Below are positions 14,503-30,691 of a DNA stretch of 36,403 nucleotides, piece after piece (the stretch's first letter is position 1; each line of letters opens with the position of its first letter). This DNA comes from a virus: the IMG/VR virus record IMGVR_UViG_3300021976_000004, positions 1 through 36,403 of that record, one strand, 5' to 3'. The notes under the pieces were generated by a model, which was not told the DNA's origin, did not search any database, and saw nothing but the letters and a program-made list of their open reading frames with translations. Made by a program: the position numbers and the translations under genes.

Positions 14503-15750
14503 TTAGACGGGCAAAGCAACCATCATGGCGTATTCGTCAACGAGCGTTCTTCCCCAAATGATGTCATGAATCATGCCGCGTTGGTTTTGACCGAAGAGTG
14601 AGCCATAGTACTGGCGAATAGATGCGCCACTATCAGGGTCTGTTTGCACTGAAGTAGGATATGGAACCTCTTCTGGAAGTTTTGGCATAGCAAGGAACAA
14701 AGGATTTCCAGCCATAATCAAACCGCAACGATGGTCAGGAAGAATTGTTACTTGCATACCGGCCACGATTTCAACGTTAATGTTTTGATTCTTGCCGGCT
14801 GATGCTTTCAATGGAGGATAAATATTCACGGTAACCTGAGAACCACCAGTACTTGCAGCATCTGCAGTTGACCGGAATTGTACTGGACACTGGGATACTG
14901 CATGACCAATGAAAGTACGGAAGCGCAAGTCTGTGCGGTTTGCTACCCCATCACTAAACTGGAACTTGTCATATACTTTTACGGAATTAGCATCACTTGC
15001 CGCAGCTGTTCCACTAAATGTGATTGAGATGACAGCATCATCCGCATTCTTAGTAACGCTCACAACAGTTAACACTGAACCCGCGTTGCCATCAGTTCCT
15101 GCTGTATGCGTTTTCAGCAAGTTTGATTGGTACCATTTACAGTTAGAGAAATCACCGATTTCCCAACTCATTGCCTCTCTGTCTCCACGCATAGGAGTGA
15201 ACTGGTTTAATCCTGAGTTCACGATTTGCGGGAAGGTTAGATCTGACAAATAACCCATTGTGTTGTTCTTAGCTGCACCGAAGTTTCTAAGAAATGCTAA
15301 TGAGTTAGCTAACTGCAGGTATGTGCTGATTGGAGTAACACCATCACCGTAGAATCGGAATGTATTGGTCTCTGCCAGCTCTGCTACGTTCTGCTCCACC
15401 TTGGTGCCAATCTCGGCAACCGCTGAAGTTCCGAACTTGTCCATGTAGTCGCGAACGTTGAAGATAAATTGTTGCGCTGTAAATTCGTAAGCAGTTGAAG
15501 CTTGTTGGTCTACAGTCAACTGTTGCACCCGCTGCTCTGCGGACTGGAAGCTTACTACTAAGCTATTTGTAGTTGTGAATCGGGGTGGCAAATCAAACGA
15601 TACGGTGTCGCCTAAGTTCTTAGGAATATCATCATTGAATCGTTGGAATTTCATGTTAGCCGTGCTAATGAACGCAAAGCTGTTTAATAGAAGTGCTAAG
15701 TTGGACTCGTTATATGTAATAACCTGTTGCAATATATTGACAGTTGCCAT
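14503..15750 (-). CDS. P22-type major coat protein
   Basis: The 415-residue protein matches the P22 coat family in length and order. It starts MATVNILQQVITYNESNLAL, has the ISTANMKFQRFNDDIPKNLGDTV region of the N-arm and E-loop, a variable beta insert around residues 220-310 where P22 has its I-domain, and the C-terminal YYGSLFGQNQRGMIHDIIWG segment. It should form the HK97-fold icosahedral shell. AAAGGGAG with an 8-base spacer supports the start. It lies just downstream of the scaffold gene, as in P22. Confidence 0.9.
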   Translation of the reverse strand: MATVNILQQVITYNESNLALLLNSFAFISTANMKFQRFNDDIPKNLGDTVSFDLPPRFTTTNSLVVSFQSAEQRVQQLTVDQQASTAYEFTAQQFIFNVRDYMDKFGTSAVAEIGTKVEQNVAELAETNTFRFYGDGVTPISTYLQLANSLAFLRNFGAAKNNTMGYLSDLTFPQIVNSGLNQFTPMRGDREAMSWEIGDFSNCKWYQSNLLKTHTAGTDGNAGSVLTVVSVTKNADDAVISITFSGTAAASDANSVKVYDKFQFSDGVANRTDLRFRTFIGHAVSQCPVQFRSTADAASTGGSQVTVNIYPPLKASAGKNQNINVEIVAGMQVTILPDHRCGLIMAGNPLFLAMPKLPEEVPYPTSVQTDPDSGASIRQYYGSLFGQNQRGMIHDIIWGRTLVDEYAMMVALPV

Positions 15751-15801
15751 TGCAAAAACTCCCTTTCAAGAAGAAACGTTTTGCAACGGCAATAGACTTA
15801 A

Positions 15802-16509
15802 CTATCCCTTAAGCCAGGGTTGCGCCCGAAGGTCGCTAATACTCTGCTTGCCGTTGCTACCAGAAACTCTTGAAGGTTGCAAACGGTCGAGCGGGGCTGG
15901 TGTGGTTTGTGATTCTGCGTCATTCTGAGCCTGCTTATTTTCGGCTATCGAACGTGATAGCTTTTGTAATTCAGCCTGAGCATAACGTGGATTCTTTGCC
16001 GCCAGTCCATCAAGCGCGTTGAGCTTAACGGGGTTACGAGCTAGTTCGTACATAACATCAGCCGCATTATCAATACCTGCTACCAAGTAAATCAATTGCG
16101 GGAATGCTGTCGGGTCAAGTTCCTTCGTAACTTCATCAAAGTCATCGTAAGATTCACGGCCTTGCTGCATCTTAGAAAGGTAACTATTTGCAACACGAGA
16201 CATTTCTTGTTCGATTTGTTTCTGTTGCATCTCTTGGTTAAATTTCTCTTGCACTTGCTGATAAATCGCATCGGCATCAACTTCGCGGTTTGTGGAATCA
16301 TTCCGCTGTCGTTGCTGCTGACTGGTGGCATTAATGCCCTCAAGTCTTTGCTGATACTCTTCCTCAACTTCGCGCCTTGCACGCAATGCCGCTTGCTCTT
16401 TTTCGCGCTGAACAATCTTGTTTACCTGAGACTGTGGGAGTAACTTTTCCTGTGTCATGTCAGGTTCAATCGGTGTTGCAGCGCTATCTAATGCTTGATT
16501 CTCGTCCAT
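15802..16509 (-). CDS. capsid scaffolding protein
   Basis: The 235-residue protein is acidic and predicted almost wholly helical, with a coiled coil at about residues 30-110 (VQREKEQAALRARREVEEEY; QQVQEKFNQEMQQKQIEQEM) and a C-terminal basic/aromatic tail (SISDLRAQPWLKG). These are the properties of P22-type scaffolds, whose C-terminus binds coat. It directly precedes coat. AGGAAGG gives a strong ribosome site, so scaffold is probably made from the promoter at 16663-16691. Confidence 0.8.
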   Translation of the reverse strand: MDENQALDSAATPIEPDMTQEKLLPQSQVNKIVQREKEQAALRARREVEEEYQQRLEGINATSQQQRQRNDSTNREVDADAIYQQVQEKFNQEMQQKQIEQEMSRVANSYLSKMQQGRESYDDFDEVTKELDPTAFPQLIYLVAGIDNAADVMYELARNPVKLNALDGLAAKNPRYAQAELQKLSRSIAENKQAQNDAESQTTPAPLDRLQPSRVSGSNGKQSISDLRAQPWLKG

Positions 16510-21364: not shown

Positions 21365-21601
21365 ATGGACACCTTAACATATACATCCTTAAGAGAGAAC
21401 CTTGCGGATGCGCTCGAAAAAGCAGAGAAAGGCGAGACTTTGGAGATTACACGCAGAGGACATAAATCCGTATATTTGGTTTCTTCACCCGATGCAAAAA
21501 TTCCAAATGACCTAAATGATCGCAAACAAAGATTTAATGCAGCACTAAATCGTGTACAAAAGGAGCATGCAGAAATAATCAGTGCTCTTGCTGATAGATG
21601 A
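21365..21601 (+). CDS. phd: Phd/YefM-family antitoxin
   Basis: The 78-residue protein starts MDTLTYTSLRENLADALEKA, the Phd/YefM DNA-binding fold with its typical LRENLA, then EKGETLEITRRGHKSVYLVS. The C-terminus is a helix (FNAALNRVQKEHAEIISALA) that would bind Doc. The stop overlaps the doc start (ATGA), giving coupled synthesis. GGA sits six bases before the ATG. It should be a labile repressor of its own promoter at 21301-21340. Confidence 0.9.
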   Translation: MDTLTYTSLRENLADALEKAEKGETLEITRRGHKSVYLVSSPDAKIPNDLNDRKQRFNAALNRVQKEHAEIISALADR

Positions 21602-22008
21602 TTCATTTCCTAACAACAGAGGAAGTGTGCGCAATCCAAGCAAGAACACTTCCTAGTGCCCCTTCATCAGATATTGGAAAAGTGGACGCAATTGTAAAAG
21701 GTGTTGAGCTTACTGTCTTCTATCTAAACTTAAATGCTGAAGGGGATATGATGTCAACTTTTCATATGGCCGCACTGTATTTAATTAATATTGCACGAGG
21801 ACATGCTTTCCCAGATGCCAACAAACGTACCGCATATCAATCCGCCATGGTATTTCTAGAGCTAAATGAAATATTATTTAAAAAAGATTTAGATCTTATT
21901 GATTTAACTGTGTTGGCAGCTACTAGCGGCATTGAAGCAAAAGAATTAGGCAGAAAGTTATTTGAAATTCATTTTGTTGGCGCAGTAATGGAAAGGCTAA
22001 GTGACTAG
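21598..22008 (+). CDS. doc: Doc toxin (Fic fold)
   Basis: The 136-residue protein carries the Doc/Fic motif HAFPDANKRTAY at residues 69-80. Doc of phage P1 uses the variant HxFxDANKRTA to phosphorylate EF-Tu and stop translation, and length and order (antitoxin first, ATGA overlap) match P1 phd-doc. The histidine and the Asn-Lys-Arg are intact, so an active toxin is expected. It kills or arrests cells that lose the element. A short inverted repeat (22000-22019) lies at the end but has no T-run. Confidence 0.95.
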   Translation: MIHFLTTEEVCAIQARTLPSAPSSDIGKVDAIVKGVELTVFYLNLNAEGDMMSTFHMAALYLINIARGHAFPDANKRTAYQSAMVFLELNEILFKKDLDLIDLTVLAATSGIEAKELGRKLFEIHFVGAVMERLSD

Positions 22009-26048: not shown

Positions 26049-26198
26049 ATGGGTTACAGAGGAAGTATGGAAGGCTGGAAAGAGGATGAAAACTTCTGTG
26101 AAGGCCATTGCGGAACGTGCGAACAATGCGACGAAAGATACTATCAAAAATGTGATGAAGATTACGAATCATCGCGGGATGAGCAGTTTTTTGACTAA
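26049..26198 (+). CDS. small acidic Cys-rich protein (49 aa)
   Basis: The frame MGYRGSMEGWKEDENFCEGH continues with CGTCEQCDERYYQKCDEDYE and ends DEQFFD. Five cysteines and a very acidic composition suggest a tiny metal-binding or DNA-mimic protein. AAGGT lies eight bases before the ATG, 11 bases after the previous stop. It is out of frame with the longer 26086-26448 frame, whose 5' half is therefore a shadow. Confidence 0.65.
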   Translation: MGYRGSMEGWKEDENFCEGHCGTCEQCDERYYQKCDEDYESSRDEQFFD

Positions 26199-26209
26199 CC
26201 GGAGTTATT

Positions 26210-26269
26210 ATGCGAAAACACTATATAAATTTGCCAGGACGATTGGAGAATATAGCATGGAATATGTAA
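26210..26269 (+). CDS. 19-residue micro-ORF in the P1 operon
   Basis: GGAG lies five bases before the ATG at 26210, a better ribosome site than many real genes here. The peptide is MRKHYINLPGRLENIAWNM and its last 13 bases overlap the start of the next gene. It may be a leader that couples or controls translation of that gene, or the remains of a longer protein. Confidence 0.4.
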   Translation: MRKHYINLPGRLENIAWNM

Positions 26270-26448
26270 GCAGTCTTTTACCCACTCTTTGGAAAATAAT
26301 TGAAAAAAAAGGTGGTGCTATCAACGTCTCTACAATCGATAATGAATTGGTGGTCAGTATCATTGGGAAAAAACGCATTAAGCGTTTCAAGAGCGCCGAT
26401 AGCCACGACCTTATAACAAATATCAATCAATATTTACAAGCCTGTTAA
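26257..26448 (+). CDS. hypothetical small protein, last gene of the P1 operon
   Basis: The 63-residue protein (MEYVSSLLPTLWKIIEKKGG; INVSTIDNELVVSIIGKKRI; DLITNINQYLQAC) is alpha/beta with a basic middle and is not recognised. GGAG eight bases before ATG 26257 sets the start. Its end overlaps the opposing gene at 26434 by 15 bases. Confidence 0.6.
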   Translation: MEYVSSLLPTLWKIIEKKGGAINVSTIDNELVVSIIGKKRIKRFKSADSHDLITNINQYLQAC

Positions 26449-26888: not shown

Positions 26889-28088
26889 TCAAGCTACACC
26901 CTGAGCCATTGCATGGGATAAAATTGCAGCCACTGAGCTTGTATTATTGTTCCTGATACTCCCCTGCTCTTTAACTTCTTTGAGGCTATCGCTCCAGATT
27001 CGCTCAGCCTTCAAATACAATGTCTTTGCTTGCTCCAAGGCTTCTTCAGTGGAGAAAAAGCTTTTCATGTGCCTTGGATTTGTTTTCTCATAAGGGATGG
27101 CGTGCTTGAAGGCTTCAATTTTCTTAATCTCTTCCGGGGTAAAGCTGTCTTTCACCGCTTTTGTTGCTATAGTTTCTGGTGAAGAGTCGTATTTTGAATC
27201 AATATGGACATAACTTGATCTAACTGTCCGGTTATTGTGATAATCAGACTTAGTGTTGATCCCAAAGGAATTTTGACCTACTGAGGTATTAAGCTTCCGA
27301 TAAGGTTCATCATTCCAACGATCACCATTCAAGTAACTTACGGGATTTGGAACAAATCCATCTTTCCAACGATCATCCTCAACAAGCATTTTTTCAACAT
27401 GCGTAATAATTTCAACTGCTAACTTGTCTAATTTTCTTTTTTTCCAAATATCCATTGCACGTTTCTTATTTTGTTTGTTTGGCCAAACTTCCCAGAACAA
27501 AGAAAAGATATCCTCACACACATTAGCCGCAGGCTGAGCCCCTTTAGGGGATATAGGGGTATTTTGAATAGATTGATGAAAAGAATAATGATCTATAGGT
27601 ATGTCGTTTTGTGCAGGGGTCCCTGCATGTGGTGCAGTAGTCCCTGCATGTGGTGCAGGGGTGTAACAAGATTGCACACCTATGTCGTTTGATGCAGGGG
27701 TGTCAGATGATTGTTCAATTAGTTTAAACCATGAGTAATCACGAGCAACGTTAAAATGGTTTTTCTTACCATATTTGAAGTGATTATAATTAACGCGCTG
27801 TACTATAAAATGCTCGAATTCTAATTCATTAAGCGCATGATATACTTTGCGCTCACTAATCTTGCACTCACGCGCAATACTAGGAATGCACATTTCTACT
27901 TCGTCACACTCTTTCGAGTAGTCACTTTCAAAGCGCAAAGTTTGATAAACTGCCATAGCGTATAGGCTTAGGTTTTTTCGACAAAGTTCGTCTATCATGA
28001 TGTAGCGAGGTCTAACGCGTTTTACAGTAATGTTTTGCAGATTAGATTGATTGGAAGGTGTATCAACTGAAGGTGATTGGTTTGGCAT
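26889..28088 (-). CDS. phage replication initiator, lambda O-like
   Basis: The 399-residue protein has an N-terminal winged helix-turn-helix (IPSIARECKISERKVYHALN at residues 68-87), a flexible linker encoded by iteron DNA (about 128-162), and a C-terminal replisome-organiser type motif (IFSLFWEVWPNKQNKKRAMD at 194-213, then FVPNPVSYLNGDRWNDE at 245-261). This two-domain layout, with the origin inside the gene between the domains, is that of lambda O. It should bind the iterons and recruit the replicative helicase. AAGGA six bases before the ATG supports the start. Confidence 0.85.
   Translation of the reverse strand: MPNQSPSVDTPSNQSNLQNITVKRVRPRYIMIDELCRKNLSLYAMAVYQTLRFESDYSKECDEVEMCIPSIARECKISERKVYHALNELEFEHFIVQRVNYNHFKYGKKNHFNVARDYSWFKLIEQSSDTPASNDIGVQSCYTPAPHAGTTAPHAGTPAQNDIPIDHYSFHQSIQNTPISPKGAQPAANVCEDIFSLFWEVWPNKQNKKRAMDIWKKRKLDKLAVEIITHVEKMLVEDDRWKDGFVPNPVSYLNGDRWNDEPYRKLNTSVGQNSFGINTKSDYHNNRTVRSSYVHIDSKYDSSPETIATKAVKDSFTPEEIKKIEAFKHAIPYEKTNPRHMKSFFSTEEALEQAKTLYLKAERIWSDSLKEVKEQGSIRNNNTSSVAAILSHAMAQGVA
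27540..27703. other. probable replication origin inside the O-like gene (iterons plus AT-rich region)
   Basis: Four related iterons lie at 27612-27627 (TGCAGGGGTCCCTGCA, perfect dyad), 27633-27648 (TGCAGTAGTCCCTGCA, near dyad), 27654-27664 and 27693-27703 (TGCAGGGGTGT). TATGTCGTTT precedes the first and fourth (27600, 27681). GGTGT at 27660 and ACACC at 27676 form another dyad. An AT-rich block (about 27540-27599) lies on the downstream side in gene orientation, as in lambda ori. Confidence 0.8.
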
Positions 28089-28117
28089 TTAAAATCCTTA
28101 TACCCTTATGCGCAGGG

Positions 28118-28146
28118 TTGCTGTCACTAGCAATATGCGCTAAAAT
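28118..28146 (+). promoter_or_regulatory. promoter of the antisense small RNA
   Basis: TTGCTG (28118-28123) and TAAAAT (28141-28146) are 17 bases apart on the plus strand. The -35 side is a dyad TTGCT...AGCAA (28118-28132). TGCGCTAA (28136-28143) pairs with TTAGCGCA (28175-28182), which spans the -10 and the transcript. Confidence 0.65.
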
Positions 28147-28152
28147 CCATGT

Positions 28153-28218
28153 TGATATTTTGTGCAATTGGATGTTAGCGCACCGATTGTTAAAGGGCAG
28201 TTGTCGCTGCCCTTTTTT
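28153..28218 (+). ncRNA. OOP-like antisense small RNA
   Basis: Between the promoter at 28118-28146 and the terminator at 28192-28218 there is no open frame, so a transcript of about 65 nt is predicted. It runs opposite to the leader of the O-like mRNA and lies between the Cro/CII-like gene and the initiator gene. Lambda OOP RNA (about 77 nt, same relative place and strand) downregulates cII. Control of replication or of the upstream regulator is inferred. Confidence 0.6.
28192..28218 (+). terminator. strong terminator of the small RNA
   Basis: AAAGGGCAG and CTGCCCTTT form a 9-bp stem around TTGTCG, with the T-run of the 3' arm continuing to 28218 (TTTTTT). It is a good rho-independent terminator in the plus direction. 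The reverse direction has only a short T-run. Confidence 0.85.
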
Positions 28219-28425
28219 GTTTCTTAAATATCATTTCTGTTTACTTCATTTTTGCCTCGTTCAAATTTATTCACGAACAAAATTAATCAAATTTCAATAT
28301 GTCACTATACGGCATTGATCATCTTTTCTTCAAGAGTTGTTCGGAATTGAATCGCGATGATTATTCGCAACAGAACCAATGCGATTAATGTGGCTTTCAT
28401 TCGCACTGGTTCGCGGAAATAATAT
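28219..28425. other. non-coding region with repeated TTCGN sites
   Basis: No gene is evident in about 200 bases between the small RNA terminator and the Cro/CII-like gene. TTCGC or close variants occur at 28340, 28364, 28400, 28410 and 28430, several in 10-base phase, like the GCGAA series at 752-814. It may hold the minus-strand replication promoter and operator sites; no convincing -35/-10 pair is seen. Confidence 0.4.
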
Positions 28426-28644
28426 TTAGTTCGAAGATAAAGAAGCATTGTGCTTTTTTTCTGGCCTTGCATGTGCTAAATCAGACTTAAATAATCCATC
28501 CGTTTTTTTTTCAATCAATAACTGAGTTTTATATGGGATATACCCAATTTTCCGCCAGTTTGCGTGGCATGTTAAACCTAATTCCAGCTTTCGAACCAAT
28601 TCAGACCAACTTCCGTAATAATCGTACAACTCTTGAGCTAACAT
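28426..28644 (-). CDS. Cro/CII-like DNA-binding protein
   Basis: The 72-residue protein (MLAQELYDYYGSWSELVRKL; ANWRKIGYIPYKTQLLIEKK; TDGLFKSD) has the small phage regulator pattern: LYDYYGS, helix, W-x-x-x-GYIP-x-x-x-Q-x-x-IE-x-x-T-G-x-x-x-x-D, shared with the N-terminus of the 30146-30691 protein. It sits upstream of the O-like gene like lambda cro/cII and diverges from the HTH gene at 28911, so it is a candidate switch regulator. GGGGGGA lies before the ATG. Confidence 0.75.
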   Translation of the reverse strand: MLAQELYDYYGSWSELVRKLELGLTCHANWRKIGYIPYKTQLLIEKKTDGLFKSDLAHARPEKKHNASLSSN

Positions 28645-28910: not shown

Positions 28911-29336
28911 ATGAAAGAAAGCAATTCGTCCATTACTACGCGAGACGCCGCCGAAATATTAGGATTTAGTACGCGACATATCCAGAACATGATCAAAGTC
29001 GGAAAACTATCAGCAACCCGCACAGAGAACGGATCATTCATTATTGATAAAGCAGAGTTTTACCGCGTATTCCCAGAGAAATTTACCGTTGAACTTGAGC
29101 GAACATCGGCGAACAAAGAAGCAAGTGGAGCGCGAACAGTTCTTGAGTCAGAAATAAAGCATTTAAAAGACATGATGACTGAAAAAGAAAAGCATAATGA
29201 ATTTTTGAGGCAGCAAATTGAAAGTATGAACAGTGAAAGGAAGATCATTCTTGAAACATTGGGAAGCAATCAGAGACTGCTTGAAGATAAAAGAGAGTCG
29301 CATAAATCAAGAAAAAAGATATTGGGCATATTTTAG
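28911..29336 (+). CDS. HTH (excisionase/MerR-type) plus coiled-coil protein, plasmid-like
   Basis: The 141-residue protein has an N-terminal DNA-binding domain (SITTRDAAEILGFSTRHIQN; GKLSATRTENGSFIIDKAEF) of the excisionase/MerR helix-turn-helix type, a long coiled coil at about residues 75-120, and a C-terminal LLEDKRESHKSRKKILGIF. Proteins of this design (HTH, coiled coil, terminal LLE..K... basic tail) occur on many small plasmids of proteobacteria. It could be a partition-like, copy-control or regulatory protein. AAGGAG supports the start. It is transcribed away from the Cro/CII-like gene. Confidence 0.7.
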   Translation: MKESNSSITTRDAAEILGFSTRHIQNMIKVGKLSATRTENGSFIIDKAEFYRVFPEKFTVELERTSANKEASGARTVLESEIKHLKDMMTEKEKHNEFLRQQIESMNSERKIILETLGSNQRLLEDKRESHKSRKKILGIF

Positions 29337-29921: not shown

Positions 29922-30183
29922 AAATATTTGATTTAGGCATTGCTATTGGGGTTCTAAGTTCGGACAACCTTTTAATTTCATTTGTGAACTTGGCTACCAT
30001 CTTGATAAGCTCAACGCTAATGAATACGGAGCTTAATTGAACCTCTTTTTCTTTACTCTCAATATCTCGTTTCAGTAAGGTTATTAATGATTCTATGTCT
30101 TCAAATCCTTCACGGATTCTTTGCATGCCCTCTAGCTTCTGTTCTTCAGTTAGTTCCATTTGTGGTATAGTCCTTTCCGTCAT
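29890..30183 (-). CDS. hypothetical coiled-coil protein
   Basis: The 97-residue protein is helical (EGMQRIREGFEDIESLITLL; KRDIESKEKEVQLSSVFISV) with a Pro-rich basic tail (TPIAMPKSNIYVPPNKRYES). Start at 30183 is the best in-frame ATG, overlapping the HTH-YopX gene by 38 bases. Not recognised. Confidence 0.6.
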   Translation of the reverse strand: MTERTIPQMELTEEQKLEGMQRIREGFEDIESLITLLKRDIESKEKEVQLSSVFISVELIKMVAKFTNEIKRLSELRTPIAMPKSNIYVPPNKRYES

Positions 30184-30691
30184 AAATATGACCAATGATG
30201 ATAAAGTTTGTCAGTTTAAGCAAATCCTGCATTTGTTTTATATCATGAAAATAAAAATAATTATTGTCCTCACATAACAATACATCGCCTTCATAGACAA
30301 ATTTATGGTTTGTGTCTTTTTTGTCTATTGCCTGCATCAAAAACTTTGCATTGAATGTGGAAATTTTACGTAATTTAGCGCCTTTGACGCGATAAGTTAT
30401 TTTTGCCTTCATGCCTTCTTGAAAAACGATTGAGTCAACCTGACACATACCATGAGTCTTGCTGTAATATCTGTAATTTGGCCAGTATTCTTTTTTGTCT
30501 TCAGTATTTTTGTACGAGTGTGATTCGTCGGCTTTTAGTTCGCCATGGGTGAGCTTTTCTAGCCTAAGTTGCTGGAGCATAGGGATATAACCACGCTTAG
30601 TCCAAATTGAAAAGCTTTGGCGAGTCAATCCAAGTGCTTTGCACGCTTGATTACCTGAGCCAAAGTATTGATACACTTCTTCAAGCGTCAT
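30146..30691 (-). CDS. HTH-YopX fusion protein
   Basis: The 181-residue protein joins an N-terminal Cro/YdaS-like helix-turn-helix (MTLEEVYQYFGSGNQACKAL, then TRQSFSIWTKRGYIPMLQQL) to a C-terminal YopX-type domain (FVYEGDVLLCEDNNYFYFHD ... FIIIGHIYD). YopX domains are common in phage hypothetical genes with a EGD ... IGNIYE pattern; here joined to a DNA-binding head, which suggests a regulator sensing something through YopX. The HTH half is related to the 28426-28644 protein. Ribosome site weak. Confidence 0.75.
   Translation of the reverse strand: MTLEEVYQYFGSGNQACKALGLTRQSFSIWTKRGYIPMLQQLRLEKLTHGELKADESHSYKNTEDKKEYWPNYRYYSKTHGMCQVDSIVFQEGMKAKITYRVKGAKLRKISTFNAKFLMQAIDKKDTNHKFVYEGDVLLCEDNNYFYFHDIKQMQDLLKLTNFIIIGHIYDGKDYTTNGTN

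Follow-up and report, generated by a model that had tools for sequence, protein, structure and literature searches.

The initiator locus

The window, which is the whole 36.4-kb virus record analysed here, encodes an O-like replication initiator of 399 aa on the minus strand at 26889-28088, matched by PHROGs to replication initiation protein phrog_270 (E 2.3e-22). Homologues of this protein are found in contigs L023, L238, L241 and L244, the L244 initiator at E 3e-20, and no relative of the whole protein was encoded in the viral or genome contigs of the first scans. Inside the gene lie iteron-like repeats (27600-27713), composed of TGCAGGGGT / CCCTGCA units about 21 bp apart, which probably constitute the replication origin. 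The O homologues of L241 and L238 have repeats at the same place in the gene, with spacings of 51, 21 and 21 bp, and that of L023 carries a similar set; in lambda, likewise, the origin iterons are located inside O.

Upstream of O, and on the same strand, is the gene for a small Cro-like regulator (28426-28644; phrog_409, E 7e-5), with a P22-Cro-like gene farther upstream at 30146-30691. The initial annotation had named the nearer gene Cro/CII-like, of which the first half agrees with phrog_409 and the second is not supported. Its product is 53% identical to that of the Cro-like gene adjoining a structured RNA in L143, described below. The O mRNA leader (28089-28425, minus strand) is highly structured, with a fold z of -5.45 for 28089-28225, and is the putative target of the predicted antisense RNA. 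The gene order is thus Cro-like gene, antisense unit, and then the O-like gene with its internal iterons, and the unit, on the plus strand, does run opposite to the O-like mRNA leader, as was originally proposed.

Terminator, dyad and predicted RNA

The strong hairpin-T6 terminator that had been noted from the sequence is present on the plus strand at 28192-28218, where a hairpin of 10 pairs, 5 of them G-C (28192-28215), runs into a T6 tract (28213-28218). This is the top terminator-like site across the scanned 14-kb region, and a plus-strand terminator as stable (dG -14) arose in only 1 of 200 shuffled leaders. A T tract is absent from the minus strand at 28192-28218, and the T6 tract points to the plus strand as that of the RNA. 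The 8-bp dyad of the initial annotation is real but is only the end of a longer one, a 14-nt dyad spanning 28136-28182 in which 13 of 14 positions match, the arms TGCGCTAAAATCCA (28136-28149) and TGGATGTTAGCGCA (28169-28182) being 19 nt apart; no dyad of 14 nt with one mismatch was seen in 300 shuffles. Terminator and 14-nt dyad together are beyond chance.

The length of the predicted antisense RNA depends on the promoter assumed. The estimate of about 65 nt holds for an RNA of approximately 28153-28221 from candidate promoter P1, and from the alternative, P2, a plus-strand RNA of about 120 nt (28102-28221) would result, its start likewise predicted. An RNA starting at 28102 would include the complete dyad hairpin (fold z -4.06), and one of about 70 nt from near 28149 is also better folded than shuffled sequences (z -3.70). 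Since the fold of the minus-strand leader is at least as good as that of the plus-strand RNA, folding alone does not choose the strand. Contrary to the description of the stretch as having no open reading frame, an 86-aa GTG ORF (28058-28318, plus strand) overlaps the predicted RNA, starting upstream of both candidate RNA starts; nothing supports its coding status.

The predicted RNA does not cover the O ribosome-binding site directly. When the RNA-bound part of the leader was masked, the start region refolded in one of the two leader lengths tested. Antisense-driven refolding of the O leader, which appears with the short leader, was set aside as not robust with the longer one. Rfam gave no match at gathering score in the window; the best sub-threshold hit, DapZ (26.8 bits against a gathering score of 56), was taken as a generic hairpin-plus-terminator match.

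Candidate promoters

Two weak plus-strand promoter candidates precede the terminator. P1 is the TTGCTG-N17-TAAAAT of the initial annotation, and it is found where it was placed, at 28118-28146, such a match being expected 0.06 times per window. P2, CTGAAG-N17-TAAAAT without a TG extension, lies at 28067-28095, its -10 element (28090-28095) overlying the O ribosome-binding region, at -7 relative to the start of O. On a scale that assumes a sigma-70-like consensus, P1 scores 7.7 and P2 7.0-7.1; for the best antisense promoters of control leaders the median is 7.2 and the 90th percentile 9.6. Thus the annotated promoter exists as a sequence, but its strength is near the control median and it has a rival in P2. 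P2 lies where lambda has pO and where L003, L005, L008, L023 and L241 have their antisense promoters.

Initiator leaders of related phages

Relatives were gathered by terminase and RecT, and their initiator genes were recognized by phmmer and PHROGs, those of L023, L094 and L025 by phmmer similarity alone, with no PHROGs match. Leaders were taken as a fixed window from -300 to +40, with start codons chosen by rule. The controls were leaders of other genes of the same loci, not matched for gene age or position; the fixed window was preferred to automatic gene gaps, in which false ORFs removed real leaders. Passed through the same pipeline as a positive control, lambda yielded the terminator of OOP at -83 and pO at -3, both relative to O.

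Antisense terminators with dG of -12 or lower were present in 9 of 19 distinct kin initiator leaders as against 12 of 260 controls (P=7e-7), and with a looser cut in 10 of 19 against 35 of 260 (P=1.4e-4); a sense-strand terminator was found in 1 of the 19, and a strong antisense terminator is missing from 10. The effect was weaker in a held-out set from three further scans, where 10 of 69 leaders had antisense terminators (P=0.007). Antisense promoter scores exceeded those of controls in the first 19 leaders (P=1.2e-5), and across whole leaders of the held-out set there was no significant enrichment (P=0.12). At the start codon itself, promoters scoring at least 9 occurred in 4 of 19 (P=7e-4) and 6 of 69 (P=0.004) initiators versus 14 of 746 other genes. 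The sequence ATTATA directly preceding the initiator ATG, read as TATAAT on the opposite strand, was found in 6 of 69 clusters and in none of 322 further ORFs from these loci (P=2.5e-5), and an antisense-strand hairpin of the form [AG]GGC..GA[TA]GCC[CT] in 15 of 88 leader clusters versus 2 of 260 controls (P=3.6e-8).

In the relatives, then, the same slot is occupied by antisense promoters and terminators whose sequence is unrelated. Among O homologues, L023 and L241/L242 have TTTACA-N16-TATAAT with a TG extension at -8, and L023, L241/L242 and L238 a GGGC(NNGAU)GCCC hairpin in the leader; all of these lineages, which are those with enough leader to judge, combine an extended -10 on the start codon with a leader hairpin. 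The window lacks TGnTATAAT at the O start codon and has TAAAAT instead, one base off and with the TG missing. Comparison with relatives raises the likelihood that the window RNA would be made, with its promoter at the O start (P2). No close DNA relative of the window leader was found in the phages searched.

On the antisense strand of several leaders, those of L147, L238 and L023 among them, GGAUGU occurs near the middle of the RNA and AGGA in a hairpin loop, elements that we take to resemble the binding sites of CsrA-type proteins; leaders are weakly enriched in GGAYGT (P=0.03).

A covarying antisense RNA family in the same slot

Covariation, whose analysis in related phages the initial annotation had proposed as a check, was found in an antisense RNA family that occupies this slot elsewhere, described by models R1 and R2, to which the window RNA does not match. 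R1 was built from an alignment of 11 leaders. The family RNA folds into two hairpins, first a large one and then a GC-rich GGC hairpin, with loops CUUGGC and AGGAA/U and with TGnTATAAT on the initiator start codon, TATAAT lying over the start codon in most members. These include L139:1242-1316 (-), L186:1331-1408 (-), L190:647-725 (-), L207:1218-1296 (-), L209:1326-1405 (-), L244:11238-11317 (+), L257:4819-4898 (-) and L040:1366-1443 (-). A search with R1 returned the unseen members L040 and L143 (E below 1e-6) and, more weakly, L166 and L005. There was no Rfam match in the loci tested; the family may have an earlier description, the literature covered being open-licence papers.

In alignments that were fitted to the model and are therefore tilted in its favour, 93% of cells pair in alignment A8 versus 29-52% when it is slid, with compensatory changes in 11 of 16 pairs; a 26-row alignment gives 93.5% pairing and 11 pairs with compensatory changes; and G-U pairs on the antisense strand outnumber A-C pairs by 27 to 7, or by 12 to 6 when one U-G dominated pair is excluded. 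This excess favours the antisense strand as the RNA in the R1/R2 family. MAFFT alignments yielded the same helices, and in them the sense strand had more broken pairs.

A blind test was provided by a DNA pattern for the RNA alone, scanned over IMG/VR without protein information. It returned 22 contigs, 12 of them new, and in all 12 new ones a predicted initiator gene adjoins the RNA, lying on the opposite strand with its start at a distance of 107-326 nt; L249 and L251 look like one phage. By phmmer, 11 of these 12 initiators match the initiator sets, and that of L259 matches PHROGs replication initiation families (E 8.4e-43); PHROGs was applied to L244, L255, L257, L259 and L264, and the other seven contigs were assessed by phmmer. 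Most of the start codons carry ATTATA. The initiators adjoining the RNA fall into several families that look unrelated (phrog_270, 678, 6643 and the A4 set). In L244, L255 and L257 the RNA lies upstream of initiators related to the window O. In L143 (577-656, minus strand) it is about 550 nt upstream of the initiator, beside a Cro-like gene; short AT-rich repeats occur between RNA and initiator, at about 740-860. The family RNA was found in 0 of 143 genomes in the order of a MAG titled Legionella and 0 of 369 in its class, and among 395 genomes in the class of a MAG titled Bacteroidetes only in the contig already known.

The window and the R1/R2 family share slot, polarity and the order of large hairpin then GC-rich hairpin, whereas the family's CUUGGC and AGGAA/U loops and its start-codon TGnTATAAT are absent from the window. 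Membership of the window RNA was rejected, the best unfiltered scores being 10.5 bits (R1) and 12.2 bits (R2). Since layout is shared without a match to the models, the window RNA is either an analogue or a relative too diverged to recognize, and by its predicted features it is to be classed as an analogue of the family and not as a recognizable member.

Relation to known antisense systems

OOP is usually seen as a lambdoid speciality that targets cII. The likeness of the window to lambda that was initially claimed stands for position and polarity: the known unit of lambda and the predicted one of the window are both antisense, in the slot between the cro/cII-type region and O, with a promoter (in the window, two weak candidates) near the O start and an intrinsic terminator upstream of O. 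The sequences are unrelated, as was also said. The likeness fails at the distal end, where OOP overlaps the 3' end of cII but the predicted window RNA ends near 28221 and the Cro-like gene ends at 28426, and the candidate window promoters are weak. OOP is also found in Salmonella prophage BTP1 (PMC7067206). Active pO reduces transcription from pR in lambda, and replication suffers when pO is lost, with the stability of the O-P mRNA unchanged by OOP (PMC3985674); OOP promotes RNase III cleavage of cII mRNA (PMC12197685).

Two further systems bear comparison. In Bacillus subtilis, ArrA is an RNA antisense to the leader of dnaA that reduces both the mRNA and the protein of the initiator (PMC12112137); like the window unit it lies opposite the 5' leader of a gene for a replication initiator, but unlike the window RNA it is chromosomal and longer, and has a DnaA-repressed promoter. 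Plasmid copy-control antisense RNAs, such as RNAII of pMV158, limit synthesis of the replication initiator (PMC4485353); the likeness is in an antisense RNA limiting an initiator, as proposed for the window, and the differences are in replicon and target structures.

Interpretation of the window locus

The window locus is best read as an OOP-like convergent antisense unit that limits initiator expression, its transcription being predicted; we put the probability of this reading at about 0.6. A short, structured plus-strand RNA would start from a promoter that coincides with the initiator start or lies a little upstream of it, cross the initiator's mRNA leader in the direction leading away from the gene, and stop at 28218. 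The transcript from the Cro-like gene to O might be limited by polymerase collision, by analogy with lambda pO acting against pR; pairing of the RNA with the leader, itself presumed, could expose the mRNA to RNase III, and may also change access to the O start codon. The outcome would be to restrain both the supply of initiator and transcription into the origin that lies within O. We infer production of the RNA in this phage, the promoter used and the role of the RNA alike.

It is unlikely, though the strongest of the alternatives, that there is no small RNA and that the plus-strand terminator only stops stray antisense transcription arriving from the O-gene side, insulating the cro-like region. 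Such a function would suit weak promoters and a strong terminator that acts on one strand only, and a plus-strand gene (26086-26448) lies 1.7 kb upstream; however, no plus-strand gene intervenes between 26448 and 28118, the strong promoters of relatives are right at the initiator start and aimed at their terminators, and lambda has a known RNA in this slot. Somewhat less probable again is that the sense strand is the functional one, the O leader hairpins controlling translation or mRNA stability and the antisense look being a by-product of symmetry. The minus-strand leader does fold very well, and its segments can pair alternatively around the start region, but that refolding varies with leader length, the T6 tract is on the plus strand only, the G-U to A-C count in the R1/R2 family favours the antisense strand, and at the start codon there is a conserved antisense -10. 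That hairpin and promoter-like sites are accidental and functionless is very improbable: about 5% of control leaders (the 12 of 260) have an equally strong antisense terminator and the promoters are ordinary matches, yet dyad and terminator are jointly very unlikely by chance and the same slot is enriched in kin leaders.

The antisense layout at the initiators of unrelated phages, together with a family found beside several initiator families, suggests that the conserved target is the initiator or the origin and not cII. One could go further, tentatively and against what we take to be the odds, and propose that environmental tailed phages hold a widespread, unnamed class of structured antisense RNAs issuing from the initiator start codon, swapped between unrelated initiator families and serving as a plasmid-like replication brake, with lambda OOP as one early-known case and the window version diverged beyond sequence recognition. 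The old question of the role of pO and OOP in replication becomes testable in other systems, and R1/R2 provide a sequence model with which to find such RNAs.

Other features of the window and of related contigs

The plus-strand gene at 26086-26448 opposes the operon, and L017 and L018 encode a similar protein on the corresponding strand. A gene at 28911-29336 (plus strand), divergent from the Cro-like gene, encodes a helix-turn-helix protein that has a long helical tail and is excisionase-like according to PHROGs; it could be a regulator of the Cro-like/O region; no integrase was noticed among the window ORFs read. A Fic/Doc-family gene at 21598-22008 (plus strand; Pfam E 7e-9) is possibly the toxin of a toxin-antitoxin pair. 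The related phage contig L065 contains a group I intron at 15602-15816 on the plus strand (Rfam RF00028, 72 bits).
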